Shown here: piece after piece, positions 87-29,779 of the stretch
Position numbering within the stretch: the first letter of the stretch is position 1
Layout: every line of letters begins with the position of its first letter
From: Cliona cf. orientalis
Taxonomy: Eukaryota; Porifera; Demospongiae; Clionaida; Clionaidae
DNA: 64,000 bases
Direction: 5' to 3'
NCBI GenBank assembly: GCA_963930775.1
Contig: OZ005704.1
Coordinates: 6,448,001 to 6,512,000, forward strand
Position numbers and translations under genes: made by a program
Notes under the pieces: generated by a model
What the model was told of the DNA's origin: nothing
Databases searched by the model: none
What the model saw: the letters and a program-made list of their open reading frames with translations, nothing else

Positions 87-971
87 ATGAATTGCCAAGA
101 AAGAATAATCATTATGCTGATAACTAGACTGCAGCTGATCACGACCATGATCTCAATAAGTAAGGTGTTTTTATCATGATTACATCACTATAATATTATT
201 GCTTTGCATGGTTTCATATCAATAGCACACTGCTCAGTACCAATTGGAAATTTTACTGAGCTAAGGAGTTTTGAGGATACAGTTTCACGCATTCCTCTCA
301 TTGACCTGCTGCGAGGTCGTGATGGACTACCTGGAAGAGATGGCGAAGATGGAATGCCAGGACCTCAAGGAGAACAGGGACCACCTGGACCTCAAGGACC
401 TCCAGGACCTAGGAGTGCTGGGGTGACCTACATTAGGTGGGGAAATAGCTCCTGCCCTAGTGTAACTGGAACTCAACCAGTCTATGCTGGAAGAGCTGGT
501 AGCACTTCTTGTTGCAGTCCTGGAGGAGGAGCAGAGAAGCTTTGTCTGCCTCTTGATCCAGACTACATTGATGTTGCTCGTTCAACCAGTGCAAACCTGA
601 TTTCTACCTTGCAAGGAGCAGAATATGAAACTCTCAATGGCCCACATCACAACTTGCATGACCAAAATGTCCCCTGTGCTGTCTGCTATGCCTCCACCAG
701 AGCTGCAATGATCATGATTCCTGCTAAAACACAGTGTCCATCTTCCTGGACCAGGGAGTACTATGGCTACCTCATGAGTGAACGAGAACATTCTGGTCAT
801 CGTCGATCATCATTTGACTGTGTCGATGTCAATCCTGATGTTGTACCTGGTGGTAGTGGGGATACAGATGGTTCCCTCTTTCAGTATGTTGTTGCTACAT
901 GCAATAGTGGTCTCCAGTGTCCACCGTACCAGGCCAACCGAGTGGTGTCCTGTGTTGTATGCACAAAGTAA
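87..971 (+). CDS. Short-chain collagen C4-like secreted protein, copy A (2 exons)
   Basis: Exon 1 is 87-159 and exon 2 is 226-971, giving 272 aa; the 66 bp intron is GT-AG, phase 1. Exon 1 encodes a hydrophobic signal segment; mature protein starts near HCSVPIGNF, which carries an N-glycosylation sequon (NFT). Then come the IPLIDLLRG hinge, 11 Gly-X-Y triplets and a Cys-rich head starting SAGVTYIRWG. The collagen stretch plus this head matches sponge and cnidarian proteins annotated as short-chain collagen C4-like (spongin short-chain type); family assignment is from memory. By analogy it is secreted and trimeric. Unlike its paralogues it has two extra adjacent cysteines in the first variable site (TSCCSPGGG) and lacks one GRD triplet. 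Bases 1-86 look like 5' UTR homologous to copies C and D; its promoter lies outside the window. Confidence 0.85.
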
Positions 972-1555
972 GCACAACGGACATTATGACAGACTGTAGA
1001 TAATAACAGCTAAGTAGATAAACTGTTTGCAGATCATGCATACTAAAATGATGTACCCTTCTATAATTCCATACCAGATCCTGAGTGTATCTCTACATAA
1101 TAATATACATTGTGTATCTACTGAGGGGTGAGGGGAATTTACTATAGTCTATAGCATGGCTAATCATATCAGATGAATAATTATTTCAAGATCAAGGGAA
1201 TTATTGGTTGTGATATAAATTGAGGATAATGAAGGCTAAAAATGATTTGTGGTATATTAATGATGCAAACATCATCTCCTTCTGGATGACCTTTTGAACC
1301 TATTAGACCTCACTGAAAAGATTCTGCATGAATTCTTTTACAAAGAAAGATTAATATTGGCTCATCATCTATATTATAATGGATACTGAGTCATTCACTA
1401 ATGTTGCACCAATCGCAAAAAGCTGGCATGAATCTCAAAAAGGTTTTTGGTGGCTGATCTGTAAATAGCTAGCTAGCTGTCAACAAGACAAAAAAGGGCA
1501 CAATTTCTGTCATAAATCCGCTGGAGGAATGGTGTAATAAACAAGTGGCCACCAC
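972..1555. other. Intergenic repeat flank of the collagen-like array
   Basis: No gene seen. The stretch is homologous to the upstream flanks of copy D (about 4300-4740) and of the fragment at 6306: all share a 'ccttctggatgacctttt' block (1279, 4492, 6060) and a block near the promoter. It is therefore part of the duplicated unit. Confidence 0.6.
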
Positions 1556-1563
1556 TATAAAGG
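1556..1563 (+). promoter_or_regulatory. Relic TATA box of broken copy B
   Basis: TATAAAGG inside the conserved 'gtggccaccactataa' context shared with copies C and D. It now leads directly into a truncated head-domain fragment. Confidence 0.5.
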
Positions 1564-1589
1564 TAGAGCTGTGAGGACTGCTTGATCAA

Positions 1590-1973
1590 CCAGTGCAACC
1601 CTCTATTCTACTCTATATGGAGCAGAATATGAAACTCATGCACATTACAACTTGTATCAACAAAATGTCCCCTGTGCTGTCTGCTATGCTTCCACCAGAG
1701 CTGCAATGATCATGATTCCTGCTAAAACTCAGTGTCCATCTTCCTGGACCAGGGAGTACTATGGCTACCTCATGACTGAGAGGGACCATGCCGTTCATCG
1801 TCGATCATCATAATATTATGACTGTATCGATGTCAAATGATCCTGATGTTGTACCTGGTGGTGTTGCAATTACAGATGGTGCCCTCTTTCAGTATGTTGT
1901 TGCTACATGCAATGGTCTCCAGTGTCCACCATACCAGGCCAGCTGAGTGGTGTCCTGTGCTATGTGCACAAAG
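1590..1973 (+). pseudogene. Short-chain collagen-like pseudogene B (promoter fused to head domain)
   Basis: The conserved promoter block runs straight into the middle of the head domain (from 'tcaaccagtgcaac'), so the signal peptide, hinge, collagen stretch and about 45 head residues are missing. Further damage: small insertions around 1811-1842 shift the frame, a CGA codon has become TGA near 1944 (AGC TGA GTG), and the terminal stop is lost. The remaining parts are about as similar to intact copies as those are to each other, so inactivation looks recent. Confidence 0.85.
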
Positions 1974-2839: not shown

Positions 2840-2847
2840 TATAAAAG
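2840..2847 (+). promoter_or_regulatory. TATA box of copy C
   Basis: TATAAAAG in the context ccaccac-TATAAAAG-tagagctgtgagg, also present before copies B and D, 118 bp upstream of the ATG of copy C. Confidence 0.7.
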
Positions 2848-2964
2848 TAGAGCTGTGAGGACTGCTTGAAATATAGGAAGACTTGATCAAGATTTAAGCC
2901 AGATAAGGAGACTCAAACAGGATTCAATATCATCTATCATCATAACGTTTCACCACTGCACGTG

Positions 2965-3851
2965 ATGAATTTCCAAGGAAAGATAATTATCATGCTGATA
3001 ACTGGACTGCTCATGACTGTGATTCCAATTGGTAAGGTGTTTTATCATGTCATACGTAATTTATATTGCTTATGTATGTTTTTGCTACATCAACAGCACA
3101 TTGCTCACCAATAATTGATAATTCTACCGAGCTAAGGAGCTTTGAGGATACAGCTTCACGCATTCCTCTCATTGACCTGCTGCGAGGTCGTGATGGTCGA
3201 GATGGTCTGCCTGGAAGAGATGGTGAGGATGGAAAGCCAGGACCTCAAGGAGAACAGGGACCACCTGGACCTCAAGGACCTCCAGGACCTAGGAGTGCTG
3301 GGGTGACCTACATTAGGTGGGGAAAGAACTCCTGCCCTAGTGTAACTGGAACTGAACTAGTCTATGCTGGAAGAGCTGGTGGAAGTGCTCATGATAGTCC
3401 AGGAGGAGGAGCAGAGAAGCTTTGCCTGCCTCTCGATCCAGACTACATCAATGTTGCTCGTTCAACCAGTGCAAGTTTTTTTTCTACCATACATGGAGCA
3501 GAATATCAGACTCATAATGGCCCCCTTACCAGTATACTTGACCAAAATGTCCCCTGTGCTGTCTGCTATGCTTCCACCAGAGCTGCAATGATCATGATTC
3601 CTGCTAAAACTCAGTGTCCATCTTCCTGGACCAGGGAGTACTATGGCTACCTCATGACTGAGAGGGACCATGCCGTTCATCGTCGATCATCATTTGACTG
3701 TGTTGATGTTTATCCTGATATTGTACCTGGTGGTGCTGGGGATACCAATGGTGCCCTCTTTCAGTATGTCGTTGCCTCCTGCAGTCGTGGTCTCCAGTGT
3801 CCACCATACCAGGCCAGCCGAGTGGTATCCTGTGCTGTGTGCACCAAGTGA
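2965..3851 (+). CDS. Short-chain collagen C4-like secreted protein, copy C (2 exons)
   Basis: Exon 1 is 2965-3031, exon 2 is 3097-3851; the 65 bp intron is GT-AG, phase 1, and splicing gives 273 aa. Residues 1-22 form a signal peptide (MNFQGKIIIMLITGLL...), followed by AHCSP and the sequon NST (31-33). Residues 53-88 are 12 uninterrupted Gly-X-Y triplets; 89-273 are the head. Head cysteines fall in SSCPS/NSCPS, KLCLPL, PCAVC, TQCPSS, FDCVD, SCS, LQCPP and VSCAVC, ten in total, enough for five disulfides. Predicted extracellular, matrix or soluble; partner unknown. It represents the family consensus well. Confidence 0.88.
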
Positions 3852-4748: not shown

Positions 4749-4756
4749 TATAAAAG
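4749..4756 (+). promoter_or_regulatory. TATA box of copy D
   Basis: TATAAAAG in the same ccaccac/tagagctgtgag context as copy C, 129 bp before the ATG. Confidence 0.7.
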
Positions 4757-4877
4757 TAGAGCTGTGAGAACTGCTTGAAATATAGGAAGACTTGATCAAG
4801 ATTCAAACCAGATAGCTATCAAAGGAGACTTGCAATATCATAATAATATTATTATCATAGCTTCACCACTACAAGCA

Positions 4878-5750
4878 ATGGATTCGCAAGGAAGAATAAT
4901 CAACGTGCAGATAACTGGATTGATCATAACTGTGATCTCAATAGGTAAGGTATTTTTATCACACATTGCCATAATAATATTATTACCTTGTAATGTTTAT
5001 GAATTCGCTACATCAACAGCACATTGTTCACCAATTGGAAATTCTACTGAGTTAAGGAGCTTGGAGGATTCAGCTTCACGCATTCCTCTCATTGACCTGC
5101 TGCGAGGTCGTGATGGTCGAGATGGTCTGCCTGGAAGAGATGGGGAGAGAGGACCTGAAGGAGAACAGGGACCACCTGGACCTCAAGGAGAACAGGGACC
5201 TAGGAGTGCTGGGGTGACCTACATTAGGTGGGGAAAGAGCTCCTGCCCTAGTATAACTGGAACTGAACTAGTCTATGCTGGAAGAGCTGGTGGCACTTCT
5301 TATGCCAGTTCAGGAGGAGGAGCAGAGAAGCTTTGTCTGCCTCTTGATCCAGATTACATCAATGTTGCTCGTTCAGTAAGCTATTTTTCTACCATACATG
5401 GAGCAGAGTATCAAACCTACACTGGACCACTGAGTCAGCATGACCAAAATGTCCCCTGTGCTGTCTGCTATGCTTCCACCAGAGCTGCAATGATCATGAT
5501 TCCTGCTAAAACTCAGTGTCCATCTTCCTGGACCAGGGAGTACTATGGCTACCTCATGACTGAACGAGAACATGCTGGACATCGTCGATCATCATTTGAC
5601 TGTATTGATGTCAATCCTGATGTTGTACCTGGTGGTGCTGCAAATACAGATGGTGCCCTCTTTTTCCATGTCATTGCCTCCTGCAATGGTCTCCAGTGTC
5701 CACCGTACCAGGCCAACCGACTGGTATCCTGTGCTGTATGCACAAAGTAA
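4878..5750 (+). CDS. Short-chain collagen C4-like secreted protein, copy D (2 exons)
   Basis: Exon 1 is 4878-4944, exon 2 is 5020-5750 (265 aa when spliced, phase 1). The signal segment begins MDSQGRIINVQITGLI; mature start near AHCSPIGNSTEL with sequon NST. There are 11 Gly-X-Y triplets with a different composition from copy C (GER GPE GEQ ... GEQ GPR). The head is two to three residues shorter than copy C at variable sites (RSVSYFS, TGPLSQHDQ). The 75 bp intron is a multiple of three and has no stop, so intron retention would also make a continuous protein. Confidence 0.87.
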   Translation: MDSQGRIINVQITGLIITVISIGKVFLSHIAIIILLPCNVYEFATSTAHCSPIGNSTELRSLEDSASRIPLIDLLRGRDGRDGLPGRDGERGPEGEQGPPGPQGEQGPRSAGVTYIRWGKSSCPSITGTELVYAGRAGGTSYASSGGGAEKLCLPLDPDYINVARSVSYFSTIHGAEYQTYTGPLSQHDQNVPCAVCYASTRAAMIMIPAKTQCPSSWTREYYGYLMTEREHAGHRRSSFDCIDVNPDVVPGGAANTDGALFFHVIASCNGLQCPPYQANRLVSCAVCTK

Positions 5751-6305: not shown

Positions 6306-6422
6306 AGTGCTGTGAATACAGAAGGTGCCCTCTTTCAGCACGTCATTGCCTCTTGCAATGGCCTCCAGTGTCCACCGTACCAGGCCAGCCGAGTGGTGTC
6401 CTGTGCTGTGTATACGAAGTGA
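6306..6422 (+). pseudogene. Short-chain collagen-like 3' fragment E
   Basis: Only the last 38 or so codons remain (GALFQHVIASCNGLQCPPYQ-like through a TGA stop at 6420-6422), abutting an array-type upstream flank. An internal deletion has joined promoter-side DNA to the gene's 3' end. Confidence 0.8.
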
Positions 6423-6821: not shown

Positions 6822-7046
6822 CTCTCACTGGCAGGATTACTGCATACAGACAATCTGTGCCTCCCAGTCATACGTATTGGCACTGTGTGGTAGGATGTGT
6901 ATCCCTGCTCATTGAATGAAATCCAGAATGTGTATGTATGCTTTTTAAACACTGTGTATCCAATGTGATTTCCAATCCCATCTGCACCCACTACGTGCTG
7001 GGGAGACAGTCGCACATAATCATTTTCCGAATCAAATAGAGTGCAA
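6822..7046 (-). pseudogene. Broken duplicate of the last exon of the orphan secreted gene at 8964-9938
   Basis: Read on the - strand it encodes CTLFDSENDY...VVGADGIGNHIG...YTFWISFN, aligning with CTLFESETDD...VVGADGLGNHVG...YTFWISFN of the intact gene. A frameshift near the end separates this from the conserved terminus (DWEAQIVC). The upstream exons are absent; at 7046 the sequence switches abruptly into a collagen-like gene on the other strand. Confidence 0.8.
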
Positions 7047-7682
7047 GGATGGAAAGCCAGGACCTCAAGGAGAACAGGGACCACCTGGACCTCAAGGACC
7101 TCCAGGACCTCGGAGTGCTGGGGTGACCTACATTAGGTGGGGAAAGAGCTCCTGCTCTAGTGTAACTGGAACTGAACTAGTCTATGTTGGAAGAGCTGGT
7201 GGCACTTCTCATGCCAGTTCAGGAGGAGGAGCAGAGAAGCTTTAGCTATCTGCCTCTTGATCCAGACTACATCAATGCTGCTCGTTCAACCAGCGCAATC
7301 CTCTATTCTACTCTACATGGAGCAGAATATGAAACTCTCAATGGCCCACTTCACAACTTATATCAACACAATGTCCGCTGTGCTATCTGCTATGCATGCT
7401 TCCACCAGAGCTGCAATGATCATGATTCCTGCTAAAACTCAGTGTCCATCTTCCTGGACCAGGGAGTACCGTATGGCTACCTCATGACTGAACGAGAACA
7501 TCATGGACATCGTCGATCATCATTAATTTTGACTGTGTTGATGTCAATCCTGATGTTGTACCTGGTGGTGCTAGAAATACGAATGGTGCCCTCTTTGAAC
7601 ATGTCATAGGCACCTGCAATGGTCTCCAGTGTTCACCATACCAGGCCAATCGAGTGATATCTTGTGCTGTGTGCATAAAGTG
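7047..7682 (+). pseudogene. Short-chain collagen-like pseudogene, 5' truncated and frameshifted
   Basis: Starts inside the Gly-X-Y stretch (GKPGPQGEQGPPGPQ...) with no signal exon or hinge. Disruptions against intact copies: about 5 bp inserted near 7242 creating a stop after EKL, about 4 bp inserted near 7403 (ctatgcatgcttcc), 2 bp near 7469 (gagtaccgtatgg), and 5 bp near 7525. Ends with TGA at 7681. Confidence 0.85.
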
Positions 7683-8693: not shown

Positions 8694-8801
8694 TAATATT
8701 ACTAGTCTCGTGAACCAGACCACTCCCTCCGCAGTATGCGCGTGCTGGTGATGCAATACGCTGTGGAGGGAGTGGTCTGGTTCACGAGACTAATAATATT
8801 A
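8694..8801. mobile_element. Short hairpin MITE
   Basis: Two near-perfect inverted arms of about 41 bp (left begins taatattactagtctcgtg; right ends cacgagactaataatatta) surround a loop of about 26 bp. No coding capacity. Typical of a miniature inverted-repeat element; superfamily not assigned. Confidence 0.75.
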
Positions 8802-11329: not shown

Positions 11330-12145
11330 ATGAGTTCCCAAGGAAGAAAATTAGTGCTGATAACTGGACTGCTCATGGTTGTGATGGTGCACTGTTCGCC
11401 AGCTGGGAATACCACTGAGCTGAAGACTCTGGACAGCATTGAGGATGCAATCTCACGTGTTCCTCTCATTGACCTGCTGCGAGGTCGTGATGGTCGAGAT
11501 GGTCTGCCTGGAAGAGATGGTGAGGATGGAAAGCCAGGACCTCAAGGAGAACAGGGACCACCTGGACCTCAAGGACCTCCAGGACCTAGGAGTGCTGGGG
11601 TGACCTACATTAGGTGGGGAAAGAGCTCCTGCCCTAGTGTAACTGGAACTGAACTAGTCTATGCCGGAAGAGCTGGTGGCACTTATTATGGCAGTTCAGG
11701 AGGAGGAGCAGAGAAGCTTTGTCTGCCTCTTGATCCAGACTACATCGATGCTGCTCGTTCAACCAGTGCAACCCTCTATTCTACTCTACATGGAGCAGAA
11801 TATCAAACTCGAGATGGCCCACATCACAACTTATTTAATCAAAATGTCCCCTGTGCTGTCTGCTATGCTTCCACCAGAGCTGCAATGATCATGACTCCTG
11901 CTAAAACTCAGTGTCCATCTTCCTGGACCAGGGAGTACTATGGCTACCTCATGACTGAACGAGAACATTCTCAGCATCGTCGATCATCATTTGACTGTGT
12001 TGATGTCAATCCTGATGTTGTACCTGGTGGTGCTGCAGATGTAAATGGTGCCCTCTTTCAGTATGTTGTTGCCACGTGCAGTGGTCTCCAGTGTCCACCG
12101 TACCAGGCCAGCCGAGTGGTGTCCTGTGCTGTGTGCACTAAATAG
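11330..12145 (+). CDS. Short-chain collagen C4-like secreted protein, copy F (intronless)
   Basis: A single 271 aa frame. Signal peptide residues 1-20 (MSSQGRKLVLITGLLMVVMV) run directly into HCSPAGNTTELKTLDS, so the phase-1 signal intron of every other intact copy is missing. 52-87 are 12 Gly-X-Y triplets; 88-271 are the head with ten cysteines. Sequon NTT at 27-29. The signal peptide is related to the C/D class, while the segment after it (TTELKTLDSIEDAISRVPL) is of the G/H/J class. One isoleucine common to the family is threonine here (AMIMTPAKT). Its 3' flank is duplicated after the pseudogene at 14889. Confidence 0.9.
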   Translation: MSSQGRKLVLITGLLMVVMVHCSPAGNTTELKTLDSIEDAISRVPLIDLLRGRDGRDGLPGRDGEDGKPGPQGEQGPPGPQGPPGPRSAGVTYIRWGKSSCPSVTGTELVYAGRAGGTYYGSSGGGAEKLCLPLDPDYIDAARSTSATLYSTLHGAEYQTRDGPHHNLFNQNVPCAVCYASTRAAMIMTPAKTQCPSSWTREYYGYLMTEREHSQHRRSSFDCVDVNPDVVPGGAADVNGALFQYVVATCSGLQCPPYQASRVVSCAVCTK

Positions 12146-13778: not shown

Positions 13779-14532
13779 CTACGATTTGCCACAAAATTGT
13801 TCATGTATCTGGAGGAATTCTTCAAATAGCTTCTGGTCTCGGACTTTTAGGGTACCCATCTTAAGTGCTTCATCTATTCTCCTTCGGTCAACTCTTGGCT
13901 GAGTGATTGGGTTTCGTTTACATTTAAGTTCCTGGATATAACGGGTATGTTTTCCCTTCCAAGAGAATCTCGACTTAAGTTCAGCCCATCTTCTACGAGC
14001 AGTATCACGTCTATCATTGCTTTCAAATACATCATCATCATCATCATCATCATCTTGTATTACCTTTTCCATATCATGTATAGTGTTAATATGCTGGTCA
14101 CATGTCAGCAGGTCAAACAGAACTGTGTCCAATATCTTTTGCTCGATCTCCATCGCCAGCTGACCTGTCATAATCGTCAGTTCGTCGTTTTCAAATACCC
14201 CGACCTCTTCTTTCAGCTTTCTAACCTCTTCTTTCAGTTGTGAAATGTCCTCTTCGAAAGCTGACATCTTTTTACTTAGCGAGAGTAAGAAATCACTACT
14301 CTCAACCACCGTTTGAAACAATTTGTCGAAATTGCTTTGCCAGAGCCTAGCACGGTTAGCTGAGTACCACTTTCGTTTTGTATAGACTCGTACAAAGATC
14401 CGTCCTCTATCCCGGCTTGTTTGAGAAGACCGAGAAATTTCCTAACGTCGCTCTGATTCCAATTGCCACTATCAATCTTTGATTTCAAAACTGAAACATT
14501 TCTTAGAAGTTCGTCTATATAGTTGCAGCCAT
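13779..14532 (-). pseudogene. Coiled-coil protein gene, frame-disrupted paralogue of 15658-16299
   Basis: The main - strand frame (up to about 14321, ending FCGKS at 13779) aligns with the intact paralogue: charged coiled coil (SALEED/EEDISQLKEEVRKLKEE), an acidic Asp run encoded by a CAT/ATC repeat near 14032-14053, then FSWKGKHTRYIQ and LKVRDQKLFEEFLQIHE. The N-terminal part (YIDELLRNVSVLKS, matching SMEELLNGSLSLLKT) lies in another frame between 14300 and 14540. The conserved ATGGCTGC start at 14532 is itself out of frame and meets a stop after five codons. So either two frameshifts or assembly errors; read as a decayed copy. Confidence 0.65.
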
Positions 14533-14757: not shown

Positions 14758-14888
14758 TTAGCGCGACGACTGGCTAAACATAACGTAAGTTGGGCGACTG
14801 AATTGCAATAGCTACTAGATAATAATATTGTAGTAAACTTCTTAACCGAGTCTCTCCTGGCACAAGTCTCTCTCTCCTTCCTCTCTCT
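14758..14888. pseudogene. Scrambled fragments of the C19orf47-like last exon
   Basis: 14846-14888 on the - strand encodes ERKERETCARRD, matching ERKERETRARRG near the end of the gene at 16554. 14758-14800 on the + strand encodes RRLAKHNV, matching RLAKHHV of the same exon but inverted. The coiled-coil gene duplication thus carried along, and rearranged, the end of its neighbour. Confidence 0.55.
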
Positions 14889-15246
14889 ACCATATATGGA
14901 GCAGAGTATCAGAGTCTTATTAAATGGGCCACTTAACAATCTGCATGACCACTGTGACAATGTTCCCTGCAGTGTGCTATCTGCTATATGCTTCCACCAG
15001 AGCTGCAATGATCATGAAGCTCAGTATCCATCTTTCTGGAACAGGGAGCTATGGTTACTTCATGACTGAACAAGAACATCCTTCTCATTACCGATCATTG
15101 TTTGACCGTATTGATATCAATCCTGGTGCTCCAAATACTCTGATGGTGCCCTCTTTCAGTATGTTGTTGCCACATGCAGTGGTCTCCACAATACCATGCA
15201 GGCCAACCGAGTGGTGTCCTGTGCTACCGGTATGTGCACAAAGTAG
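14889..15246 (+). pseudogene. Short-chain collagen-like pseudogene, head fragment
   Basis: Begins within the head (STIYGAEYQS...) right after the C19orf47-like fragment. Frame is broken repeatedly: an insertion near 14966, loss of the IPAKTQ codons near 15017, altered CPPYQ region near 15190, and an insertion before the final VCAQS-like end. Its 3' flank matches that of copy F. Confidence 0.8.
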
Positions 15247-15657
15247 CTATACTACTACATAGTCTACCAGACTTAACTGTATCTAGATCTATGGAATAAA
15301 AAAAGATTATATTATTTTAATATTGTACACTGTTGGTCTGTAGATACTTTAGACTAAATCTATGACTGATCTGAACACATGCTATTATTTATGTTGAATT
15401 TAGTACACATTTTAAATTGGCATTGTTTTATTCTTTTTAGTTGATTTAAAAACCTGTTCAAGGGCTAGTTGAGTTGAGGTGTGCAATAGCAGTAATCAGT
15501 GGAGATCCTTGCTTTGTGCTGCGTGTAATGTCTTTTGGCGCTTAGTCAGTAATCATTAATTTTGGGTGTTAACTTGAGTTTTGCATAATAATAATAGTAC
15601 TGATATTTTAGTGGCTAACTAACAATTCATTGTCACTGTACATGTTAAAAAAAGGTG
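15247..15657. other. Duplicated 3' flank
   Basis: Homologous to 12146-12400 downstream of copy F; no gene seen. Confidence 0.5.
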
Positions 15658-16299
15658 TTAAATTCTAGGCTTGGCACAAAGATATTCATGAATCCTAAGA
15701 AATTCTTCAAAGAGCTCTCTGTCTCTCACCTTTAGGGCACCTGTTTTAAGTGCTTCCTCCATCTCTCTTTGCTCAAATCTTGGACATGAAATCATCATCA
15801 TCACAATTCGATTCTCCTTGAGGTGCTTGATGTAGCGGGTGTGCCTTTCCTGCCATGAGAACTCCGACTTAAACTCACTCCATCTCCTATTGGCAGCTTC
15901 AATGTCACCTTCTGTCTCAAATACATCATCATAATTATCACAGTCTTCTCCTCGAAGTGCCCTTTCCATCTCATCTAAAGAGTGCAGGCACTGGTCTGGA
16001 GGCACAATATCTCCCAGAACCCAATCTATTATTTTGCGTTCAAATTCTGCAGCAAACAGGCCCATCATGTGTATCAACCTGCCTTTCTTGTTATTTTCAA
16101 GGAATTTGTCCAGCATCTTGTACTTTTGTTTTCTAAGTTGTTTTATCCTTTCTTTCAATTCCAGTTGGTCCTTTTCGAGAGCAGATAATCTCTGCGATAT
16201 GTGTGCTAGCACCTTAGCATCAAAAACGACCACAGTTTTGAGTAAACTTAAAGATCCGTTCAAAAGCTCCTCCATGGAAACTCCTTGCTTAGCAGCCAT
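15658..16299 (-). CDS. Coiled-coil protein of unknown function
   Basis: Single frame of 213 aa starting at MAAKQGVSMEELLNG. I prefer this ATG over the longer upstream frame because the ATGGCTGC start is conserved in the paralogue at 14532 and the sequence before it is not. Residues about 20-65 form a charged coiled coil (ISQRLSALEKDQLELKERI...). A middle segment with an acidic run follows, then FSWQERHTRYIKHL and ALKVRDRELFEEFLRIHE, the parts best conserved between the two copies and so probably the functional core. No signal peptide or membrane segment: likely intracellular. Family not recognised; the gene is intronless. Confidence 0.7.
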   Translation of the reverse strand: MAAKQGVSMEELLNGSLSLLKTVVVFDAKVLAHISQRLSALEKDQLELKERIKQLRKQKYKMLDKFLENNKKGRLIHMMGLFAAEFERKIIDWVLGDIVPPDQCLHSLDEMERALRGEDCDNYDDVFETEGDIEAANRRWSEFKSEFSWQERHTRYIKHLKENRIVMMMISCPRFEQREMEEALKTGALKVRDRELFEEFLRIHEYLCAKPRI

Positions 16300-16553
16300 T
16301 GTACACGAGGGACAAAACGCCAGTGTTGCGCATGGGATGCGCATGCGCGGCGTGATCCACTGCATGTCTGCGCATTCGCTGTCTGATCGCTGACGACCAT
16401 TTCCAAAAAGATACAAAGAATAGAGCGATAGCAGATGCTATATTATGTCTCCAGTAGAGTGTTTTATGATGCATACAGATGATTATAATTTGTTAAAATT
16501 ATCCAATCAGAATTCACTATGTGTTACGTAATAATTACAGACTAAATAATTAT

Positions 16554-18340: not shown

Positions 18341-21300
18341 GAGAGAGAGGCTGGCTATAACATACTTACCTAAGCGTTGGGTGAGAGAGGAGTGCCTCTA
18401 GCTTGGCTACATTCACTGAGGGCCCCTCTTCCTCTGCTAGAGTGAGCTCATCCTCGTCCAGTGGGTCAGTGTCTGAAGTCCAACTGTCAGCGGGCTCCTC
18501 ACTCACAACTAAAACACACACAACACACACACACAAATAAGCAATCAGTGGATAAATGTAATGCAGTGACACTACGAAATTGGATTATTAGCATAATAAT
18601 TATGCAATAATGATGTAATAATTATGCATGATCTAATGATCCCTGATTTCTTGACCAAGCACTAAGTGCAGGGGGCTTAAACTGTTTGATTTTTCAGTTA
18701 TTAATCGTACTGTATAGAATCAATGATCCTATGGTTAAACAGTTTCTCAAATTAGCTATGCAATGAAGACTGAAGTTGTAAAGGAATTCTGAGATCATTC
18801 ATCACTCATTTATTTTATTCCACCAGCCCCCCCCCCCCCCAAATGATACAATGATTAACTCACTGACCCAGGTGCTTTGTCCTCCTTGCAGTTGATGTTG
18901 TGGTGGAGACAGCAGCAGGAGGGGCAGCCAGGCCAGGGCTGGTGGAGTGAGCCGCTGGGATCTTCATCGAGGAAGAGGGTGGAGCAGACTTGGACGATGA
19001 ACCACCTCCCCCTCCTCCACCAAGATCCTTTCTTCGCGACTCCTGAGAAGATAAACATACTATTAGATGAGATTTCCATAGGACTGAGAGGAATCTATAA
19101 ATATGCATTGTGCACTTCTAGTTTTGTGCTGACATTAATTTTGACAGCGCCACTGCAAAAAATTAAATTTTGCCCTTACCTGGGAGTGGACTTGCTTGGC
19201 ATGTTTCAAGATGCTGATGACATCTCCCATCACCTTAATGCCCATGTCATTGAGAATATCCTGAAAGATAGTATGGAAACACAATCGGTAAAAGTTTGTG
19301 CACAGGAGTACTGAGTACATAAGCAATATTGTTGTCACCTTGTTGAGATCTAGAAGCATGTCTCTGGAGATTCGATTGTCCTCAAATATCAGAGCATAAC
19401 TATTGTACATGTGTGTGTGTATGTGTGAGGTGATTGGGGAGAAATCATACCACTTAAAATGAACAGCATGGGCAGACAGCTTCCACTTAACTTACATGTA
19501 CATAATATTATTATTACAAAATGAATGAAAAGCCTGGGTACAAGGCTAGAACTTCATGCATCCATGCTCAGATAAATTCTAGGAGGGGGAATGTCACAAT
19601 TAAGTTTGAGCCCACACTGCGCAGCCTTAGCTAGAGCAAACACAGCTGCACTGCTGCCCACAACCAGAACAGAAATACACTCTTGCCCACAATTAAATCC
19701 ATACACCAAGTTTGGAGAGCCATGGCACTGCATGGGCAATATTCTGTCTGCCAAGATGTATACTCCTGCCACACCTATGCAGTTTGCCTTCAGAATGAAC
19801 CACAGGCTCTCACAGTGAGTTCCCTCATGCTTTAGGAGGGGAGCCGTGATGACTATAAACAACATCTGTCACTTTCTTTCGATTGTAGCCAACATTCACC
19901 ACAACAGTTATTAAATCACACACGATATACTTTCACCTTGGAGATCAAAGCCATTACCTTATCCAACCTCTATCTTCATATTTTCTACAATTTTCAGTGA
20001 CAGCTAGTCATTCACAATAGCCCTATTAGTATGGAGTCTATAAAAGCAGAGGTGAAAAGGTAGCTCTCCATAATGCAATCAGATTCAAAACCACTGCTCC
20101 TTAAAATCCAAGAATGGAAAGGAAAGAAATTGCCACTGGACTATTACTCTTGATATTTGCACTATCAAGTGGTAACTGCATGTAACCTCAATTTGTATTG
20201 ACATCCTTATCTACAGTGCACTGTTCACCAGCTGGGAACACCACTGAGCTAAAGACTCTGGACAGCATTGAGGATGCAATCTCACGTGTTCCTCTCATTG
20301 ATCTGCTGCGAGGTCGTGATGGTCGAGATGGTCTGCCTGGAAGAGATGGTGAGGATGGAAAGCCAGGACCTCAAGGAGAAAAGGGACCACCTGGACCTGA
20401 AGGACCTAGGAGTGCTGGGGTGACCTACATTAGGTGGGGAAAGAGCTCCTGCCCTAATGTAACTGGAACTGAACTACTCTATGCTGGAAGAGCTGGTGGA
20501 ACCTCCTTCAATAATCATGGAGGAGGAACAGAGAAACTTTGTCTACCTCTTGATCCAGACTACATCAGTGATGCTCGTTCAACCAGTGCAACCCTCTATT
20601 CTACCATACATGGAGCAGAATATCAAACTCGAGATGGCCCACATCACAACATATTTGATCAAAATGTCCCCTGTGCTGTCTGTTATGCTTCCACCAGAGC
20701 TGCAATGATCATGATTCCTGCTAAAACTCAGTGTCCATCTTCCTGGACCAGGGAGTACTATGGCTACCTCATGACTGAACGAGAACACCCTCTTCATTAC
20801 AAGTCATCATTTGACTGTGTTGATGTCAATCCTGATATTGTACCTGGTGGTGCTGGAAGCACAGATGGTGCCCTCTTTCAGTATGTTATTGCTACGTGCA
20901 ATGGTCTCCAGTGTCCACCGTACCAGGCCAACCGAGTGGTGTCCTGTACTGTGTGCACAAAGTAGGGGAAAACCCTTCTGTACCTAGAATTTTGTGACTA
21001 CAAAACTATAGATACATCTCATTTCTGCACAAGATTAAATGTGTATATTTTGAAAATGAGAATTAATACATTATTAAATTTTACTCATTTTAGCAAGGTC
21101 ATTCACCGTATAGGCCCCATGAATAAACACTAGGCACCACTGGTCCCATGCCTAGGTGTACATTATTCCAGGAGCACATGAAGAGAAGGACATAGATTCC
21201 AATTGTCCCTGAATCTCCGGGACAGTCCCGGATTTTTAGCAACAGTCCCGCATCCGGCAAGGTTCTACTATAGTTATATTGTTGGTCCCGGAAGAGGTCC

Positions 21301-24300
21301 AGACACTTTCTAGATACAACTTACATGAGCTCACTACCCAGACACTGGCATATAAATACTGGTGTAGTGCTACAACTAATCACTTATTGGTGGTAAAATG
21401 AACCTGGTAGTGCCTTACAACAACTACACTACAAGAGATCTACTAGGCTTGCAAACAGAGAGTATATTCTGGGCATCGTGGTCATCAAATTCAATCATAT
21501 TGGGTGTGGTGTGGGTGGAGTTCTAATTAATGATTGGCGGATCTAGTGGGTGTGGTCTATGTCCCTGGAGCTGTAACACTGCTCATTCCTGCTAATGCAT
21601 GGCAGGTAGAAACATTTTGACTAAAATTCTGTAATCCAAATGACGTGACTAGTAATGGGAGTAGCAAAAAATGACCACAATAATATTATGGTTGGCAAGT
21701 TAGAAAACTGCCATATATGGAAGTTTTCGAACATTTTATCAATAACTTGTTGTTGCAATGTTCATGGCACATTACGCTATTCTTGGTATAGTATAGTACC
21801 CACTATAATAATCTCTAAGATTTTATTTGTAGAGGCTATCACAAGATAGTTTACTTTATCTTTCTAGATGTATGCTCCTTCTCTTCATGTGCTCCTGGTT
21901 ATTCTTATCACAATGTCATGCATAATTATAACTCCCTCCAACTGTACTGGAGGAGCTGATGACACTAATCACTACAATTAGGAAGAGAAACAGAGAAGCT
22001 TTGCTTGCCACTTGATCCAGGCTATACGTCAATGCTATTCTCATGCAGTGTGGCTCACATGCACACACTCCTTCGATCCAACTTGACATGTATGAGTCAT
22101 AGATCCACTAACCCTTAGAGGATGTGGCTAGGGGAGGAGCAAGTTAGCACAAGTAGCCAGTTCTGTGACTATAGACCTCTGAGTTCACAGATTGCTAACT
22201 GCCTGACTATCTTGTGCTCCACTACAGCTTAAATTAGAAAATTTCATTGTTATCCACAATCAATGCACGCAGGCTATCTTCCACATCATACTCTTGCCAC
22301 ATCTATGCAGTTCACCTACAGAATGAACCACAGGCGCTCACAGTAAATCCTTTCTTTCTTTATGAGGGGAGTCATGATGACTAGAACAAAATCTGTCAAC
22401 ATGCCCTCACTTTCTTTGATTATAGCCAACATTCACCACAACAGTTCAATCATATATGATACATACATGTGGTGGTGTATCTAGAGAGTGTGTGTTCATA
22501 GGGCCCCAAAGGGCCCCAACTGCATGAGAGCACACCCAAACCAGGGGGGTCTGGGGGCATGCCCCCCTCCCCCCCCCTCCCCCCCCCCCCCCCCAAGGAA
22601 ATGTTTGAAAAATCAGCTCTCATGACAGTAATTCTGGTGCATTCTGAGCAGTATAATATTATTCTAGCACACATTATCTGCAAACAATTAAAGACAAAAA
22701 TGGACTTCAATAAGTATTCTTTAGTGGAATTAATGACTTCACAACACATCAGAGATATGCTCCAAATTCACTTTCAGTCGAAGTTTTTTCTTTGCTAAGA
22801 GGCCGAAGTACAGAAAACAGGCAAATTTATGTTTAGCCCCTTCTCCCCCAAGTTTTTGGCCAGAGGAGTAGGGTGGGCACCTTGAATATTTGGCAGAGCC
22901 CCTGCCCTGCTAGGCCCTGCCTTAGATACGCCACTGCTTACATGTTGGGGATCAAAGCCAATTATCTTATCCAATTATCTGACTTCACATTTTTTACAAC
23001 CTTTAATGACAGTCATAGTAGCGGTGTTGGTATGGAGCCTATAAAAGCAGAGATGAAAAGAGAGCTCGCCATACCATCAGTCAATCCAAAACTATTGCTC
23101 CTTAAAATCCACCAATGGAAAGAACAGGAATAACTACTGCGTTACTACTCTTGATATTCACACTATCAAAATTTAATGGTAACTGCAACTTTTTTTAATA
23201 GTATTATATATGTGGCTTATTAATTCTACAGTGCACTGTTCACCAGCTGGGAACACCACTGAGCTAAAGACTCTGGACAGCATTGAGGATGCAATCTCAC
23301 GTATTCCTCTCATTGACCTGCTGCGAGGTCGTGATGGTCGAGATGGTCTGCCTGGAAGAGATGGTGAGGATGGAAAGCCAGGACCTCAAGGAGAACAGGG
23401 ACCACCTAGACCTCAAGGATCTCAAGGACCTAGGAGTGCTGGGGTGACCTACATTAGGTGGGGAAAGAGCTCCTGCCCTAGTGTAACTGGAACTGAACTA
23501 GTCTATGCTGGAAGAGCTGGTGGCACTTCTTATAGCAGTTCAGGAGGAGGAGCAGAGAAGCTTTGTCTGCCTCTTGATCCAGACTACATCAATGCTGCTC
23601 GTTCAACCAGTGCAACCCTCTATTCTACCATACATGGAGCAGAATATCAAACTCGAGATGGTCCACTTCACAACATATTTAATCAAAATGTCCCCTGTGC
23701 TGTCTGCTATGCTTCCACCAGAGCTGCAATGATCATGATTCCTGCTAAAACTCAGTGTCCATCTTCCTGGACCAGGGAGTACTATGGCTATCTCATGACT
23801 GAGAGGGAAAATTCTGCACATCGTCGATCATCATTTGACTGTGTTGATGTCAATCCTGATGTTGTACCTGGTGGTGTTCCAAATACAAATGGTGCCCTCT
23901 TTCAGTATGTCATTGCTACATGCAATGGTCTCCAGTGTCCACCATACCAGACCAACCGAGTGGTGTCCTGTGCTGTGTGCACAAAGTAGGGAAAAACCCT
24001 TTTACCTAGCATTTTGATTACAAAATTATAATGTACATCTTATTTCTGCACAATATCATAAAAATTATTGTACATATTTTGGAAATGACATTATTCTGCT
24101 CACTTTTGGGATGTCACTGAGTCTCATGCACTATTAATATAGGCTCCATAGATAAACACTATGCATCAAATCACCATAGCATTAATTCATTACCAGTACT
24201 AATCCTATGCCCAGGTGTGCATTACTCTTATCACATGCACACACTCTCCAACTGCACTGGAAGAGCTGGAGGCACTAATTACAATTCAGGAAGAGAAACA

Positions 24301-27300
24301 GAGAAGCTTTGCTTGCCACTTGATCCAGGCTATACGCCAATGCTACTCATTCAACCAGTGTGGCTCACATGCACACTCTCTCCAATTTTTACCCTGTGTG
24401 TGCACATGTGCAGCAAGGGGTAGAACAATTGGTTTGCCTGTCGTCTGTCATATAAAAATCGGCAAATCTCAACATTTAAGCGAATATATTATAATCAATG
24501 GGATAAAAATTTAATGGTCTAAAATAGCGAAAAAAAATCACCTCCTATTCCTTTCTTAACCCTATAGGCAATCGCCAGGGGGGCTGCAAATCATGCAAGT
24601 ATGTTGGACATGCCCATGAACTAGGGCATCTACTGCGTATGCTCGAGTTTCTCTACTAGGGAGTCTACTATGCATGCTCGAGTTTCTCTATAGCACTCCA
24701 CAATTAATGTGATTTGTGACTATGGATCTCAGAAAGAGATCATTTAATCAGTTTCTGAGCAGCAAGAGACTAAACTTCAAAGAATAGAGGCCTCCAAAAA
24801 GAGGTATTGGCGATATATTATAATTATTTCCATGGCACGTGGGGTATGTGCTCTATTATAACATGTATTGTTCGTAGATATTAAAACCCTTAGAGGATGG
24901 GACTATAGGGGATGAGCAACTTTGTACAAATATAGCCAGTTCTGTCACAGATCTGTGACTATAGGCCTCCGTAGCTAACTGTATGACTATACTGTGCTTC
25001 AGTACAAAATACCTATCTTGCACAGGCATAACTATATATCACCTTCATTGCCATCGTCATGGTAATAGCTACCATTATGTAAACACCTCCAGGACCAATG
25101 ATCCTCTACAGGCATCTGATGATCAGTATAATATACTCCTCCAAATTAATGTCAACAGTTACCAGCGATCACGCCATGTCAGCCACTCACATGATAAATG
25201 TATAAACTAGTTATTATTACTTACAAAAGCTGAGACAAACATTATACGTGTAAATTTGTATCATCATAATTTCAGTCTAATACAGAGGTTAGATATACAA
25301 TAAATCTCTACTCAGCATTCATTACTTAGTCTAGAACTCAGGCTGCTGTGGATCATACACTGGCCGAAAAATTTTGAATTTGGACAGTCAAGAGTCATGA
25401 ATAAATATTTTCTTAAGCTTCATACCTGGCTGACATTCTTAACAAATCCTATGGGTAGCATCACAAATCCTACTATAAAAGTGGCACTAACAGTAAGTAT
25501 CTCGACAGGGATCGATATTATCTGCAGCTCTTTGATTATTACAGAATTTTAAAATGGAATCAAAAGTCATTGGAATACTATTCTGCTGGCTAACAGTAGG
25601 TGAGTAAATTCAAGTACATAGGTTAACTAGAGCTCTGTAGAGCACATACCCCGCGCGCACGTGCACATTGCGCAATCTATAGATTTACTTTTAGTACATG
25701 GCTATAATTTTGTGAACTTCAGAGAAATAATGGAAATGCTGCTTAGTTGTACTGGGGGTTACGGTGACACTTGAAAAAGCGCTCTCTGCACCCAGACCTA
25801 GCCCACACTAGGAAGATATGAGTATAGCTATCTTACATTATGATTGGTTCTATAGGGCAGTGACTATAGACTTAGCATATCGACGGTCTTTACCAGTCAT
25901 ACGCTTAGCCACTTAGTTGTGCGCATGAGCAGAAAGCACAATTGGTATGCATATGCATTGATGGGCACTGTCGATAGGCGTGGCTACGGTGGCCAACAAA
26001 AAGGCACTATTTGTGATGTTCGTGGACCGTATCCCTCGATTTGACGCACACTGAAGCCACTTTTTCGCCGAAATCGATTGATTCCTTGTGATTATGAGTC
26101 GCTTAGACGCCTATATCTCGAAAAAAGGCGATTTTTGTGCTAACGACAACAACAACGACGACGACGACGACGACACAACCGATTACTTTACCCCTTGCGC
26201 ATGCGCGCGGGGTAATGATCTTCCATTAATTCATACGTTTATATTGTTACAGTAGTGCACTGTGTACCAATATCGACCAGAAATTCCACTGAGTTAGACA
26301 CTTTGGAAAGTTTTGACGACATAGCTTCACGTATTCCTCTCATTGACCTGCTGCGAGGTCGTGATGGTCGAGATGGCCTACCCGGAAGAGATGGGGAGAA
26401 AGGACCTGAAGGAGAAAAGGGACCACCTGGACCTCAAGGACCTCCAGGACCTAGGAGTGCTGGGGTGACCTACATTAGGTGGGGAAAGAGCTCCTGCCCT
26501 AGTGTAACTGGAACTAGCTTACTGTATATGGGAAGAGCTGGTGGGAGTGAATATAATGATCAAGGAGGAGGAGCAGAGAAGCTTTGTCTGCCTCTTGATC
26601 CAGACTACATCAATAATCCCCGATCAACAAGTGCACGTTACTTTGCTACAATCACTGGAGCAGAATATACAACACACGATGGGCCTCATCAAAATCTAGT
26701 TGATCAAAATGTCCCCTGTGCTGTCTGCTATGCCTCCACCAGAGCTGCAATGATCATGATTCCTGCTAAAACTCAGTGTCCATCTTCCTGGACCAGGGAG
26801 TACTATGGCTACCTCATGACTGAACGTAGCAAAGCTCATCACTATCGCTCATCATTTGACTGTGTTGACGTTAATCCTGATGTTGTACCTGGTGGTACTG
26901 GAGATAGAGATGGTGCCCTCTTTCAGTATGTTGTTGCTTCCTGCAACAACAAAGGTCTCCAGTGCCCACCGTACCAGGCCAGCCGAGTTGTGTCCTGTGC
27001 TGTGTGCACAAAGTAGGGAAAAAACCCTTGAATTTTGATTATAGAACTGTAGTAATAAGTAGCCATCTCATTTCTATATACACAATGTCATTATTTGAAA
27101 TGCCTAGGCTAAATGAGAATTGATATAGAATATACATTACCTTTAGGGAGGTTTCACCATAATAATTATAGGCCCCACAAATGAACACTATAGGCAGAAA
27201 GTACAGATGGTACCCTCGCCCTCTTTTACCACGTCATTGCCACATGCAATGGTCTCCAGTGTCCACCGTACCAGGCCAACCGAGTGGTATCCTGTGCTGT

Positions 27301-29779
27301 GTGCACGAAGTAGGGGGAAACCCTTCTATAATAATAATCATATTATCTCATTTCTGCACAATGTTGTTATTTGAAACATGTGTATAGTTGAATGAGAATT
27401 GATGGGCCCCACAAATAAACACTAGGCACCCCCATGCCCAGGTGTACATCACTCTTATCATTTAGCTACTCTCCCTCCAACTGAACCTGAAGAGCTCGTG
27501 GTACCATAATCACCACACTTCAGGAGGAAGTGCAGAGAAGCTTTGCTTACCACTTGATCCGGACTATACATCAATGCTGCTTGTTCAACCTCACATGCAT
27601 ACTCCCTCCAACTTTACAATGTCATGTATATTATGGTTCATAGATATCATATTAACCCTTAGAGGGTGGGACTAGAGGAGGAGCAAATTAGTACAAGTAG
27701 CCAGTTCTGTCGAAGATCTAGCTGCGATTATAGATCTCTGAGTTCACAGACTGCTAACTGCATGACTACAATAATATTATTATGCTTCACTATAGCTACA
27801 TTCCCATCATAACCTCATAGTAATCGATACACCGCTTGTGTAAACAGGTCCAGGACCAAAAGACCATGGAGTGATCACCCTGCAGGCTCTGTGAATGATG
27901 TCAAAACACTTTTTCATGACGTATATGCTCCACTAAATGAATGTCAATAGTTACCAGTGATCAACTTATGTCATCACTCAGTGCATAATAATGTATAATC
28001 TAATTATTAAATTACTTGTAAAAGCAGAGATGAAATTTACGTCACTATCTAATACAGAGGTTAGAAATCAATATTATACCTTCTACTCAGAATTCGCTAT
28101 AGAACTTGGTAAGCTGTTGAGGATCACACACAGGCCAAATAATTGAACTTGGGACAGTTTTAGAGTTATGAATTATTATCTTAAACTCCACACCTAGCTG
28201 ATGTTCTTAATCTCCTTCTGACGTAAGCTCAAATCCCATGAATAGTGTCACAAATCCTATAAAAGTGGCACTGACAACAGGGATCTACATCTGCAGCACT
28301 TCAATTTACAGGAAAAAGCTTCAGAAATGGACTCAAAACTCATTGGAATATTATTTTACCTGACAATAACAACGGGTGAGCAAATTTGAAGTACATACAT
28401 ATTGTACGTAGGTGTATGACTTTCTGTTAGTTGATATAATATTATTACATCTTTATTGTAGTGCGCTGTTCACCAGTTGGAAACATCACTGAGCTAAAGA
28501 CCCTGGACAGCATTGAGGATGCAATCTCACGTGTTCCTCTCATTGACCTGCTGCGAGGTCGTGATGGTCGAGATGGTCTGCCTGGAAGAGATGGTGAGGA
28601 TGGAAAGCCAGGACCTCAAGGAGAACAGGGACCAACTGGACCTCAAGGACTTTCAGGACCTAGGAGTGCTGGGGTGACCTACATTAGGTGGGGAAAGAAC
28701 TCCTGCCCTAGTGTAACTGGAACTGAACTAGTCTATGCTGGAAGAGCTGGTGGAAGTAATCACCATATTCCAGGAGGAGGAACAGAAAAACTGTGTCTGC
28801 CTCTTGATCCAGACTACATCAATGCTGCTCGTTCAACCAGTGCAACCCTCTATTCTACATTACATGGAGCAGAATTTCAAACTCGAGATGGTCCACAGCA
28901 TAACATATATAACCAAAATGTCCCCTGTGCTGTCTGCTATGCCTCCACCAGAGCTGCAATGATCATGATTCCCGCCAAAACTCAGTGTCCATCTTCCTGG
29001 ACCAGGGAGTACTATGGCTACCTCATGACTGAGAGGGAAAGTTCTGGACATCATCGATCATCATTTGACTGTGTTGATATCAATCCTGATGTTGTACCTG
29101 GTGGTAGTGGGGATACAAATGGAGCACTCTTTCAGTATGTCATTGCTACATGCAATGATGGTCTCCAGTGTCCACCGTACCAGGCCAGCCGAGTGGTGTC
29201 CTGTGCTGTGTGCACAAAGTAGGGAAAAACCCTTCTACTGACTACTCTACATGCACATTAATTTTCTGCACAAGAATATCATTGATTTTTGAAATATAAT
29301 ACTACTGTTATTATGTTTCAGAGACTATCATACATGTGTAGCTACTAGATGTACATTATACATGTAGTAGAACTCATTCAGATTTTAACACTCAATGAGT
29401 GACCATATTTCATAATAATCTGAACAAAAATTTTCTGGATCATAAGATCATGATAATTATTATAAATAGGATACAGATTTGACCCAATAACCTTGGGTTG
29501 GCATCTCGTGGTGCAGTCACGGATATTGTGGAGCAAGTTTTGACCTTGTCCCCAGTATTGACTAGAAAATGAATCTCATCGTACATTTTACTTACCTCTT
29601 AGCGACTGATGATGGAATACCAGCATCCTTGAAGAACTGAACCCAGTAGTTGGCACCTATCCAAAAATGTAGATATGGTTATTCTAATTAGAGAACACCA
29701 ACAAAAGTTCTCTCTAGCTTTTAGGCAGCTGGAGAACGCTAGAACATACACAAGAGTATTGAACAGTGAACTTACTCAT
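16554..29779 (-). CDS. C19orf47-like SAM-domain protein (9 exons)
   Basis: Coding exons (- strand): 29779-29776, 29656-29596, 19399-19339, 19260-19180, 19042-18868, 18508-18370, 18144-18009, 17821-17587, 17374-16554. All phases agree and the product is 570 aa. Residues about 3-70 form a SAM-like domain: NYWVQFFKDAGIPSSVAKSY, then ALIFEDNRISRDMLLDLNK and IKVMGDVISILKHAKQVH. This aligns without gaps to human C19orf47 (WIQFFKEAGIPP..., MLLDLNKEIMNELG, GDIIAILKHAKVVH) as I remember it. The rest is Ser/Thr/Gly-rich and disordered, with repeated SGRLG/FSRL motifs and the end VFGRLE, like the FxRLG repeats of the human protein. The last exon carries a glutamine run. Exon 1 contributes only ATG plus one base. 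Intron 2 (19400-29595) contains four intact collagen-like genes. Function of the family is poorly known. Confidence 0.82.
18241..18352. repeat. (GA)n microsatellite
   Basis: About 110 bp of nearly pure GA, lying in the intron between exons 6 and 7 of the C19orf47-like gene, so pyrimidine-rich in the transcript. Confidence 0.95.
19400..20038. other. Start of the large host intron; 5' flank of copy G
   Basis: No gene seen. 19730-19990 is homologous to 22260-22990 upstream of copy H (shared 'gccaacattcaccacaaca'), so copies G and H duplicated together with their 5' flanks. Confidence 0.5.
20039..20046 (+). promoter_or_regulatory. TATA box of copy G
   Basis: TATAAAAG in tatggagtc-TATAAAAG-cagaggtgaaaag, the same context as copy H and different from C/D/F; 75 bp before the ATG. 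Confidence 0.65.
20114..20965 (+). CDS. Short-chain collagen C4-like secreted protein, copy G (2 exons)
   Basis: Exon 1 is 20114-20171, exon 2 is 20217-20965; the intron is only 45 bp (GT-AG, phase 1), giving 268 aa. Signal peptide MERKEIATGLLLLIFALSS is of a different class from copies A-F. Mature start near VHCSPAGNTTEL (sequon NTT). Eleven Gly-X-Y triplets end GEK GPP GPE GPR. Variable head sites read TSFNNHGGG, DGPHHNIFDQ, TEREHPLHYKSS and GGAGSTDGALF; ten head cysteines conserved. Nested in the C19orf47-like intron on the opposite strand. Confidence 0.88.
20966..21949. other. 3' flank of copy G
   Basis: No gene supported. The 3' flank resembles those of copies H, I and J (ataaacactaggcacc blocks), part of the repeat unit. 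Confidence 0.45.
21950..22070 (+). pseudogene. Ancient collagen-like head remnant 1
   Basis: Decayed text matching the region YAGRAGGT...EKLCLPLDPDY (aggagctgatgacactaatc ... gagaagctttgcttgccac). Nothing else of the gene remains. Confidence 0.7.
22071..23039. other. 5' flank of copy H
   Basis: No gene seen. Contains a poly-C tract (about 22561-22595) and a block (cttagaggatgtggctagg...) also found near 24895 and 27660. Confidence 0.45.
23040..23047 (+). promoter_or_regulatory. TATA box of copy H
   Basis: TATAAAAG in tatggagcc-TATAAAAG-cagagatgaaaag; 75 bp before the ATG, as in copy G. Confidence 0.65.
23115..23989 (+). CDS. Short-chain collagen C4-like secreted protein, copy H (2 exons)
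   Basis: Exon 1 is 23115-23178, exon 2 is 23232-23989; 53 bp phase-1 intron, 273 aa. Signal peptide MERTGITTALLLLIFTLS is of the copy G class. The collagen stretch has 12 triplets, but one glycine is replaced: GPP-RPQ-GSQ-GPR. A Gly substitution normally kinks or destabilises a triple helix, so this member may fold less stably or mark a flexible point. Head sites: TSYSSSGGG, DGPLHNIFNQ, TERENSAHRR, GGVPNTNGALF. Ten head cysteines conserved. Confidence 0.88.
24247..24365 (+). pseudogene. Ancient collagen-like head remnant 2
   Basis: Encodes CTGRAGGTNYNSG and TEKLCLPLDPGY in one frame, then decays. Close relative of the remnants at 21950 and 27480. Confidence 0.75.
24366..25473. other. Intergenic DNA inside the host intron
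   Basis: No gene supported. 24890-25470 is homologous to 27650-28257 upstream of copy J, including the block leading to the TATA box. Confidence 0.5.
25474..25481 (+). promoter_or_regulatory. TATA box of copy I
   Basis: TATAAAAG in aaatcctac-TATAAAAG-tggcactaaca, shared with copy J; 80 bp before the ATG. Confidence 0.65.
25554..27016 (+). CDS. Short-chain collagen C4-like secreted protein, copy I (2 exons, long intron)
   Basis: Exon 1 is 25554-25599; exon 2 starts at 26253 (or 26256, tandem acceptor cag/tag) and ends at 27016, giving 269 or 268 aa. Signal peptide MESKVIGILFCWLTV is of a third class, shared with copy J. After VHCVPISTRNSTEL (sequon NST) comes DTLESFDDIASRIPL, the most divergent hinge approach. 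Eleven triplets include GEK GPE GEK. The head is the most divergent intact copy (SEYNDQGGG, NNPRSTSARYFATITG, DGPHQNLVDQ, TERSKAHHYRSS, CNNKGLQ). The intron is 653 bp instead of 45-86 bp and contains a GAC trinucleotide run near 26155-26172. Confidence 0.86.
27196..27313 (+). pseudogene. Collagen-like 3' fragment after copy I
   Basis: Last 38 or so codons (STDGTL..FYHVIATCNGLQCPP...VCTK stop at 27311-27313) with a small insertion near 27210; followed by a second copy of the 3' flank. Shows a collapsed tandem duplicate. Confidence 0.8.
27480..27600 (+). pseudogene. Ancient collagen-like head remnant 3
   Basis: Decayed copy of the GRAGG...EKLCLPLDPDY...RSTS region (gcagagaagctttgcttacc). Same segment as at 21950 and 24247. 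Confidence 0.7.
27601..28257. other. 5' flank of copy J
   Basis: No gene seen; homologous to 24890-25470 upstream of copy I. Confidence 0.5.
28258..28265 (+). promoter_or_regulatory. TATA box of copy J
   Basis: TATAAAAG followed by tggcactgacaaca as in copy I; 69 bp before the ATG. Confidence 0.65.
28327..29222 (+). CDS. Short-chain collagen C4-like secreted protein, copy J (2 exons)
   Basis: Exon 1 is 28327-28375, exon 2 is 28462-29222; 86 bp phase-1 intron, 269 aa. Signal peptide MDSKLIGILFYLTITT matches copy I, but the sequence after it (TELKTLDSIEDAISRVPL) matches copies F, G and H, so the 5' module and body have different closest relatives. Twelve triplets, ending GPT GPQ GLS GPR. Head sites: SNHHIPGGG, DGPQHNIYNQ, TERESSGHHRSS, GGSGDTNGALF. 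It is the last member of the array before the host gene's exon 2. Confidence 0.87.
29223..29595. other. 3' flank of copy J
   Basis: No gene seen; lies between copy J and exon 2 of the C19orf47-like gene. Confidence 0.45.

Follow-up and report, generated by a model that had tools for sequence, protein, structure and literature searches.

A tandem array of spongin short-chain collagens in the sponge Cliona cf. orientalis, with variable stretches that recur across a genome-wide family

The window analysed here is a stretch of 64,000 nucleotides from Cliona cf. orientalis (C16:6448001-6512000, within a genome assembly of 217 Mb and 149 contigs), which carries at positions 87-29222 of its forward strand eight intact open frames, each made up of a conserved short lead, a Gly-X-Y stalk and a globular head. 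The sequence and a predicted structure together identify this array as one of several groups in a family of spongin short-chain collagens (SSCC) that extends across the genome, with an apparent signal peptide, a short stalk and a head of predicted NC1 fold. The family, also named 'short-chain collagen C4', is already known, so the undescribed system that a preliminary description saw here is not one, but it is larger than first reported. Its heads vary at the same short places from array to array, and we lean, on balance, towards regarding the window genes as matrix collagens with paralog-specific contact loops, in which five loop-rich stretches escape an otherwise constant scaffold.

Identity of the window genes

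The conserved lead ends in PLIDLLRGRDG and is followed by 11-12 Gly-X-Y triplets in 8/8 window copies, with one Gly replaced in one copy; the two copies scanned scored 27.1 and 24.4 bits against the Pfam Collagen profile, just short of its cut-off of 27.2. A separate signal-peptide exon is apparent in seven copies, copies 7 and 8 being less clear, and in copy 4 signal, stalk and head run through a single frame with no break, in keeping with the secreted stalk-plus-head architecture first proposed. The eight heads are 179-184 residues long and 79-85% identical to that of copy 1, and the near-constant scaffold and the motifs originally quoted from it are all present.

The predicted model of the head (predicted local distance difference test, pLDDT, 86.5) finds its fold matches in collagen IV NC1, although Foldseek gives them low TM-scores (by query, 0.23-0.31 for ranks 1-9), which counts against the assignment. 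Ten cysteines, at head residues 12, 42, 86, 89, 106, 134, 161, 166, 177 and 180, are conserved across the 69 distinct intact heads taken into our alignment, nine of them invariantly and one nearly so, and the heads read RWG where NC1 reads RHSQ, the HSQ motif thus being missing. In the portion of PMC5395295 available to us, the SSCC are recognised by ten conserved cysteines and by the absence of four NC1 cysteines and of the HSQ motif; the window genes resemble them in the ten cysteines and the lack of HSQ as well as in the short Gly-X-Y stalk, the NC1-like head and the membership of a multigene family. They differ in that a single genome here holds 94 stop-free heads, with variable stretches recurring in eight arrays, and none of the papers listed in our literature searches pointed to an account of an SSCC family this large with such recurrent stretches.

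With collagen IV NC1 itself the window heads share the predicted fold, and eight cysteines align by order, whereas the same portion of PMC5395295 gives seven; the window genes differ in having neither the HSQ motif nor four of the NC1 cysteines, and in their very short stalk. Demosponges are said, in that portion of the paper, to have no detectable collagen IV; a separate host gene (G000:C1:5762806-5764153, L082) carries C4 domains (collagen IV NC1) above the Pfam cut-off. Among the 69 heads the C4 domain (PF01413) found no match at E up to 10. Presumably the heads resemble the records named 'short-chain collagen C4-like'.

C1q, the collectins and the ficolins follow a general plan of collagen stalk and globular head, and it was to these that the window genes had been likened. 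They share that plan, but the head domain differs: no C1q, C-type lectin or fibrinogen-like domain was listed by Pfam for any of the 69 heads with E-values as high as 10 admitted, the four families listed being stray (the best, DUF3750, at 0.0011 in 4/69), and a head of this kind was rejected.

The genome-wide family

When the genome was searched in six frames at the protein level, 150 of 175 candidates were scored and 151 matches came back; by hand count, 94 of these are stop-free heads spanning nearly the full query, on 12 contigs and at 33-100% identity. Among the 69 aligned heads, 59 sort into eight groups, or arrays: that of the window (10 heads) and those referred to here as C10 (8), C12 (12), C11 (9), C16b (6), C4 (5), C5 (5) and C14 (4), the window and C10 groups having one member each from a different chromosome. 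The diversity measured is that between genes of one genome, in one assembly. A further intact head (C16:6446457-6447005) immediately precedes the window, and a close one is found on another chromosome (C17:1928278-1928829).

The C12 array (C12:2089789-2128913) is a tandem array of short-chain collagens in which 12 intact heads were read. Two of these, L059 and L063, have their loops in common and 3' flanks that are 99% identical; other C12 pairs have some loops in common and others not.

Five variable stretches of the head

Amino-acid variation among the window heads is clustered, as had been claimed from inspection: taken over windows of six residues, the variance of amino-acid difference comes to 2.44 times the mean of shuffled data, a value attained in 0/2000 permutations. 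For comparison, the neighbouring array of six receptor genes (40600-58739) gives 1.29 times (56/2000), the mean amino-acid difference being alike in the two arrays (0.169 in the collagens, 0.178 in the receptors). Five stretches, 51 residues in all (S1 to S5, Table 1), were picked from the 69-head alignment together with the list in the preliminary description; the four sites listed there are all borne out, but the count was incomplete, S2 having been missed. All eight arrays vary at these stretches, non-silent difference exceeding that of the scaffold in 40/40 stretch-by-array cells, by a small amount in some (for C5 at S2, 0.031 vs 0.019).

The description of these sites as loops finds some support in the monomer model, where S1 and S5 lie entirely outside strands, S4 does so for 8/9 residues and S3 for 9/13. 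Two points here count against the picture of recurrent variable loops: the stretches were selected with all arrays already in view, and the 38/51 stretch residues outside strands, vs 62/131 elsewhere, are matched by 16 of 181 circular shifts, so that, taken together, the five stretches show only slight enrichment outside strands.

Selection, silent change and exchange between copies

The stretches of the window array have a ratio of non-silent to silent change (dN/dS) of about 0.6 by counting. Selection was tested with one tree per segment against a null that bars amino-acid rates above silent rates, with 160 simulations per simulated array. The likelihood-ratio statistic (twice the log-likelihood difference, 2dL) came to 12.2 in C12, 7.7 in C11, 4.1 in C10, 3.2 in C16b, 2.3 in C4, 1.7 in the window array, 0.3 in C14 and 0.2 in C5, and the observed value was reached by 0/160 simulations for C12 and 4/160 for C11. 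Several of these results speak against selected diversity as a general property of the stretches. The observed statistic was reached by 83/160 simulations for the window array, with no sign of positive selection there, and by 14/160 for C10, 25/160 for C16b and 20/160 for C4; the simulations covered the six arrays other than C5 (statistic 0.2) and C14 (0.3); the C12 margin is narrow, the highest simulated value being 12.1; and the C11 result would fail correction for six arrays. The elevated amino-acid change proposed for the variable sites is therefore present in C12 and perhaps, less firmly, in C11, and is not shown in the window array.

Silent change, too, runs higher in the stretches, which had not been foreseen. 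In the window array the rise is three- to four-fold, with a silent rate of 3.74 in the stretches (2.79 in one of four settings) vs 0.87 in the scaffold (likelihood-ratio test 48.5-53.5), and in C14 it is 3.74 vs 1.56; in C10, C12, C11, C16b and C4 it is about 1.3-2.4-fold up in the stretches (p 0.004 to 0.1). The 200 nt past the stop codon are far more divergent than the heads (0.52-0.66 median identity vs 0.87-0.94; shuffled, 0.18-0.44), exceptional pairs reaching 0.99. From the raised silent change and the less similar flanks we infer that the scaffold has been homogenised within arrays while the loops have escaped. A test for mosaic runs over all sites supports exchange in C4 (0/200), C12 (1/200) and C10 (1/200), and with silent sites alone C12 (5/200), C11 (7/200) and C14 (11/200) stand out.

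Homogenisation has its own contrary evidence. The all-site mosaic runs are weaker in the window array (13/200) and C11 (10/200), and those at silent sites give 165/200 in the window array, 158/200 in C10 and 37/200 in C4, as against the low count in C12. The C5 stretches have no silent excess over the scaffold. Between arrays, too, silent change is higher in the stretches (0.558 vs 0.471, partly saturated), so that a higher local mutation rate, or a codon constraint on the scaffold, may be at work instead.

What the variable stretches may do

In the interpretation we favour, the head scaffold is kept constant by purifying selection and, presumably, by gene conversion between neighbouring copies, and the five loop-rich stretches escape. 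The stalks would trimerise and the loops would serve as paralog-specific contact surfaces, with different collagens binding different partners, be these each other, the matrix, cells or microbes; the outcome would be a set of germline-encoded matrix adhesins. Loop diversity seems favoured in C12, and perhaps in C11, since stretch codons there outpace silent sites, while the loops of the window array would be no more than free. Short-chain collagens are treated as components of the skeleton or matrix in the literature consulted. The size of the family, its one scaffold and the recurrence of its variable loops suggest contact specificity within the sponge matrix, and the stretches name concrete residues for swap tests.

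It is quite possible, if not probable, that the genes encode plain structural collagens of the spongin type, in which loops without a binding role drift and accept almost any polar residue, the scaffold being held by purifying selection and gene conversion. The dN/dS of about 0.6 in the window stretches and the lack of demonstrable positive selection there would be expected of such genes, as would the joint climb of silent and amino-acid rates and the broken copies within the array, which accord with birth-and-death evolution. Such genes would less readily account for C12 lying above its simulated null, and C11 less firmly so, or for S1, which hardly varies in length (1 gap among 69 heads) and in 66/69 heads has Y, H, F or W at residue 31. 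Nor is the composition random at the 23 variable positions, where N, H, Y and Q are enriched and C, M, I, L and V depleted against a baseline of translated DNA from window positions 30000-40000.

That the array is an immune, symbiont-binding or self/non-self repertoire, as first proposed, we regard as decidedly unlikely. The many paralogs, the constant scaffold with variable loops, and the polar, Tyr/His/Asn-rich nature of the variable positions would all suit such a repertoire, and a polymorphic genetic system is taken, in the portion of PMC5450542 available to us, to underlie sponge graft responses. The main text of that graft transcriptome study, however, has 'collagen' once (as deposition) and 'short-chain' never. 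In Amphimedon, according to part of PMC3447736, short-chain collagens go up in adults alongside genes for cadherins and scavenger receptors, a pattern as compatible with a matrix role as with an immune one.

Targeted mutation of the loops by a hypermutation system, which would lift silent and amino-acid change alike, agrees with the silent excess inside the stretches of most arrays and with A-C, A-T, C-G and G-T differences being more frequent there than in the scaffold, but is highly improbable given the lack of silent excess in C5, the smaller excess between arrays, and the fact that amino-acid selection likewise shifts the mutation spectrum. We know, moreover, of no germline hypermutation system of such a kind in animals.

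Mapping onto the NC1 contacts of collagen IV

Residues 64, 66, 74-78, 175, 179, 187 and 189 of the alpha-1 NC1 take part in a chloride-dependent contact between trimers (PMC6527180), to which Met93 and Hyl211 have been added (PMC13098435), and the EA and EB loops sit at the apexes (PMC8093946), each as given in the available part of the paper cited. These contact residues fall between cysteines 53-108 and 164-222. By cysteine order, not by measured position, S2 and S3 would match the interval holding residues 64-93 and S5 that holding 175-211; S1 and S4 lie outside the contact-holding intervals. Spongins are said, in the portion of PMC5395295 already referred to and on the basis of modelling, to lack the domain-swapping region, so the assembly of short-chain collagens may differ from that of collagen IV.

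By analogy with these contacts, there is an outside chance that the variable stretches form a pairing code, in which heads would dock to one another and paralog-specific (perhaps individual-specific) loops would choose which molecules join. If true, this would be a matrix-borne identity system built on a basement-membrane fold, with relatives on bacterial surfaces.

Related heads in Myxococcota

A related NC1-type head was found in 12 of 377 Myxococcota genomes (two queries, some matches partial; L085-L095). One of these proteins (L089:1318-2079) has a signal that by eye is lipobox-like, a Gly-X-Y stalk and a head, in other words the plan of a short-chain collagen, a combination of stalk and head seen this once among the Myxococcota heads. 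Its head is 32-42% identical to 27 aligned host heads and has all ten cysteines, and its predicted model is NC1-like. It differs from the host genes in being bacterial and without an intron, as well as in the lipobox-like character of its signal. In several other Myxococcota proteins the head closes a long frame of fibre-like character; among all these heads, the more distant are without two of the ten cysteines. The heads of collagen IV and spongin have been described as animal inventions (in part of PMC5395295), and collagen IV is also reported from Ministeria, which would extend it to animals and their close unicellular kin (in part of PMC5560861). A bacterial protein that joins a Gly-X-Y stalk to an NC1-like head turns the origin of the domain into a testable question.

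Layout of the array and neighbouring genes

Eight broken copies or fragments are interspersed among the intact genes (Table 1).

Table 1. Short-chain collagen copies, remnants and variable stretches in the window
Feature	Position	Strand	Remarks
Copy 1, signal-peptide-like exon	87..158	+	ATG at 87, then hydrophobic stretch; alignable exon in other copies; 3' end approximate
Copy 1, pre-stalk, Gly-X-Y stalk, head	228..971	+	head 420-968
Broken copy	1571..1973	+	in-frame stops
Copy 2, signal-peptide-like exon	2965..3020	+	3' end approximate
Copy 2, stalk and head	3099..3851	+	head 3300-3848
Copy 3, signal-peptide-like exon	4878..4950	+	3' end approximate
Copy 3, stalk and head	5022..5750	+	head 5211-5747
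Head fragment	6309..6410	+	
Broken copy	7046..7680	+	in-frame stops
Copy 4, signal, stalk and head	11330..12145	+	one open frame; head 11597-12142
S1, head residues 29-34	11681..11698	+	position in copy 4
S2, head residues 51-65	11747..11791	+	position in copy 4; absent from the preliminary list
S3, head residues 70-82	11804..11842	+	position in copy 4
S4, head residues 120-128	11954..11980	+	position in copy 4
S5, head residues 144-151	12026..12049	+	position in copy 4
Broken copy	14886..15250	+	
Copy 5	20114..20965	+	signal-like exon from 20114; stalk/head exon from ~20219; head 20417-20962
Head fragment	21949..22070	+	
Copy 6	23115..23989	+	signal-like exon from 23115; stalk/head exon from ~23234; head 23441-23986
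Head fragment	24256..24360	+	
Copy 7	25554..27016	+	possible signal exon 25554; stalk/head exon from ~26258; head 26462-27013
Head fragment	27218..27313	+	
Head fragment	27486..27590	+	
Copy 8	28327..29222	+	possible signal exon 28327; stalk/head exon from ~28464; head 28671-29219

Two frames on the reverse strand inside the collagen array (13779-14441 and 15658-16437) carry similar stretches that by eye are acidic and coiled-coil-like, and a Pfam scan of both gave no family above cut-off. The receptor array used above for comparison encodes, in tandem, six proteins that are related to one another, measure about 300-340 amino acids and look multi-pass by eye; in the one protein scanned with Pfam no family was above cut-off, DUF4199 being weak, and one additional close copy lies on C5.
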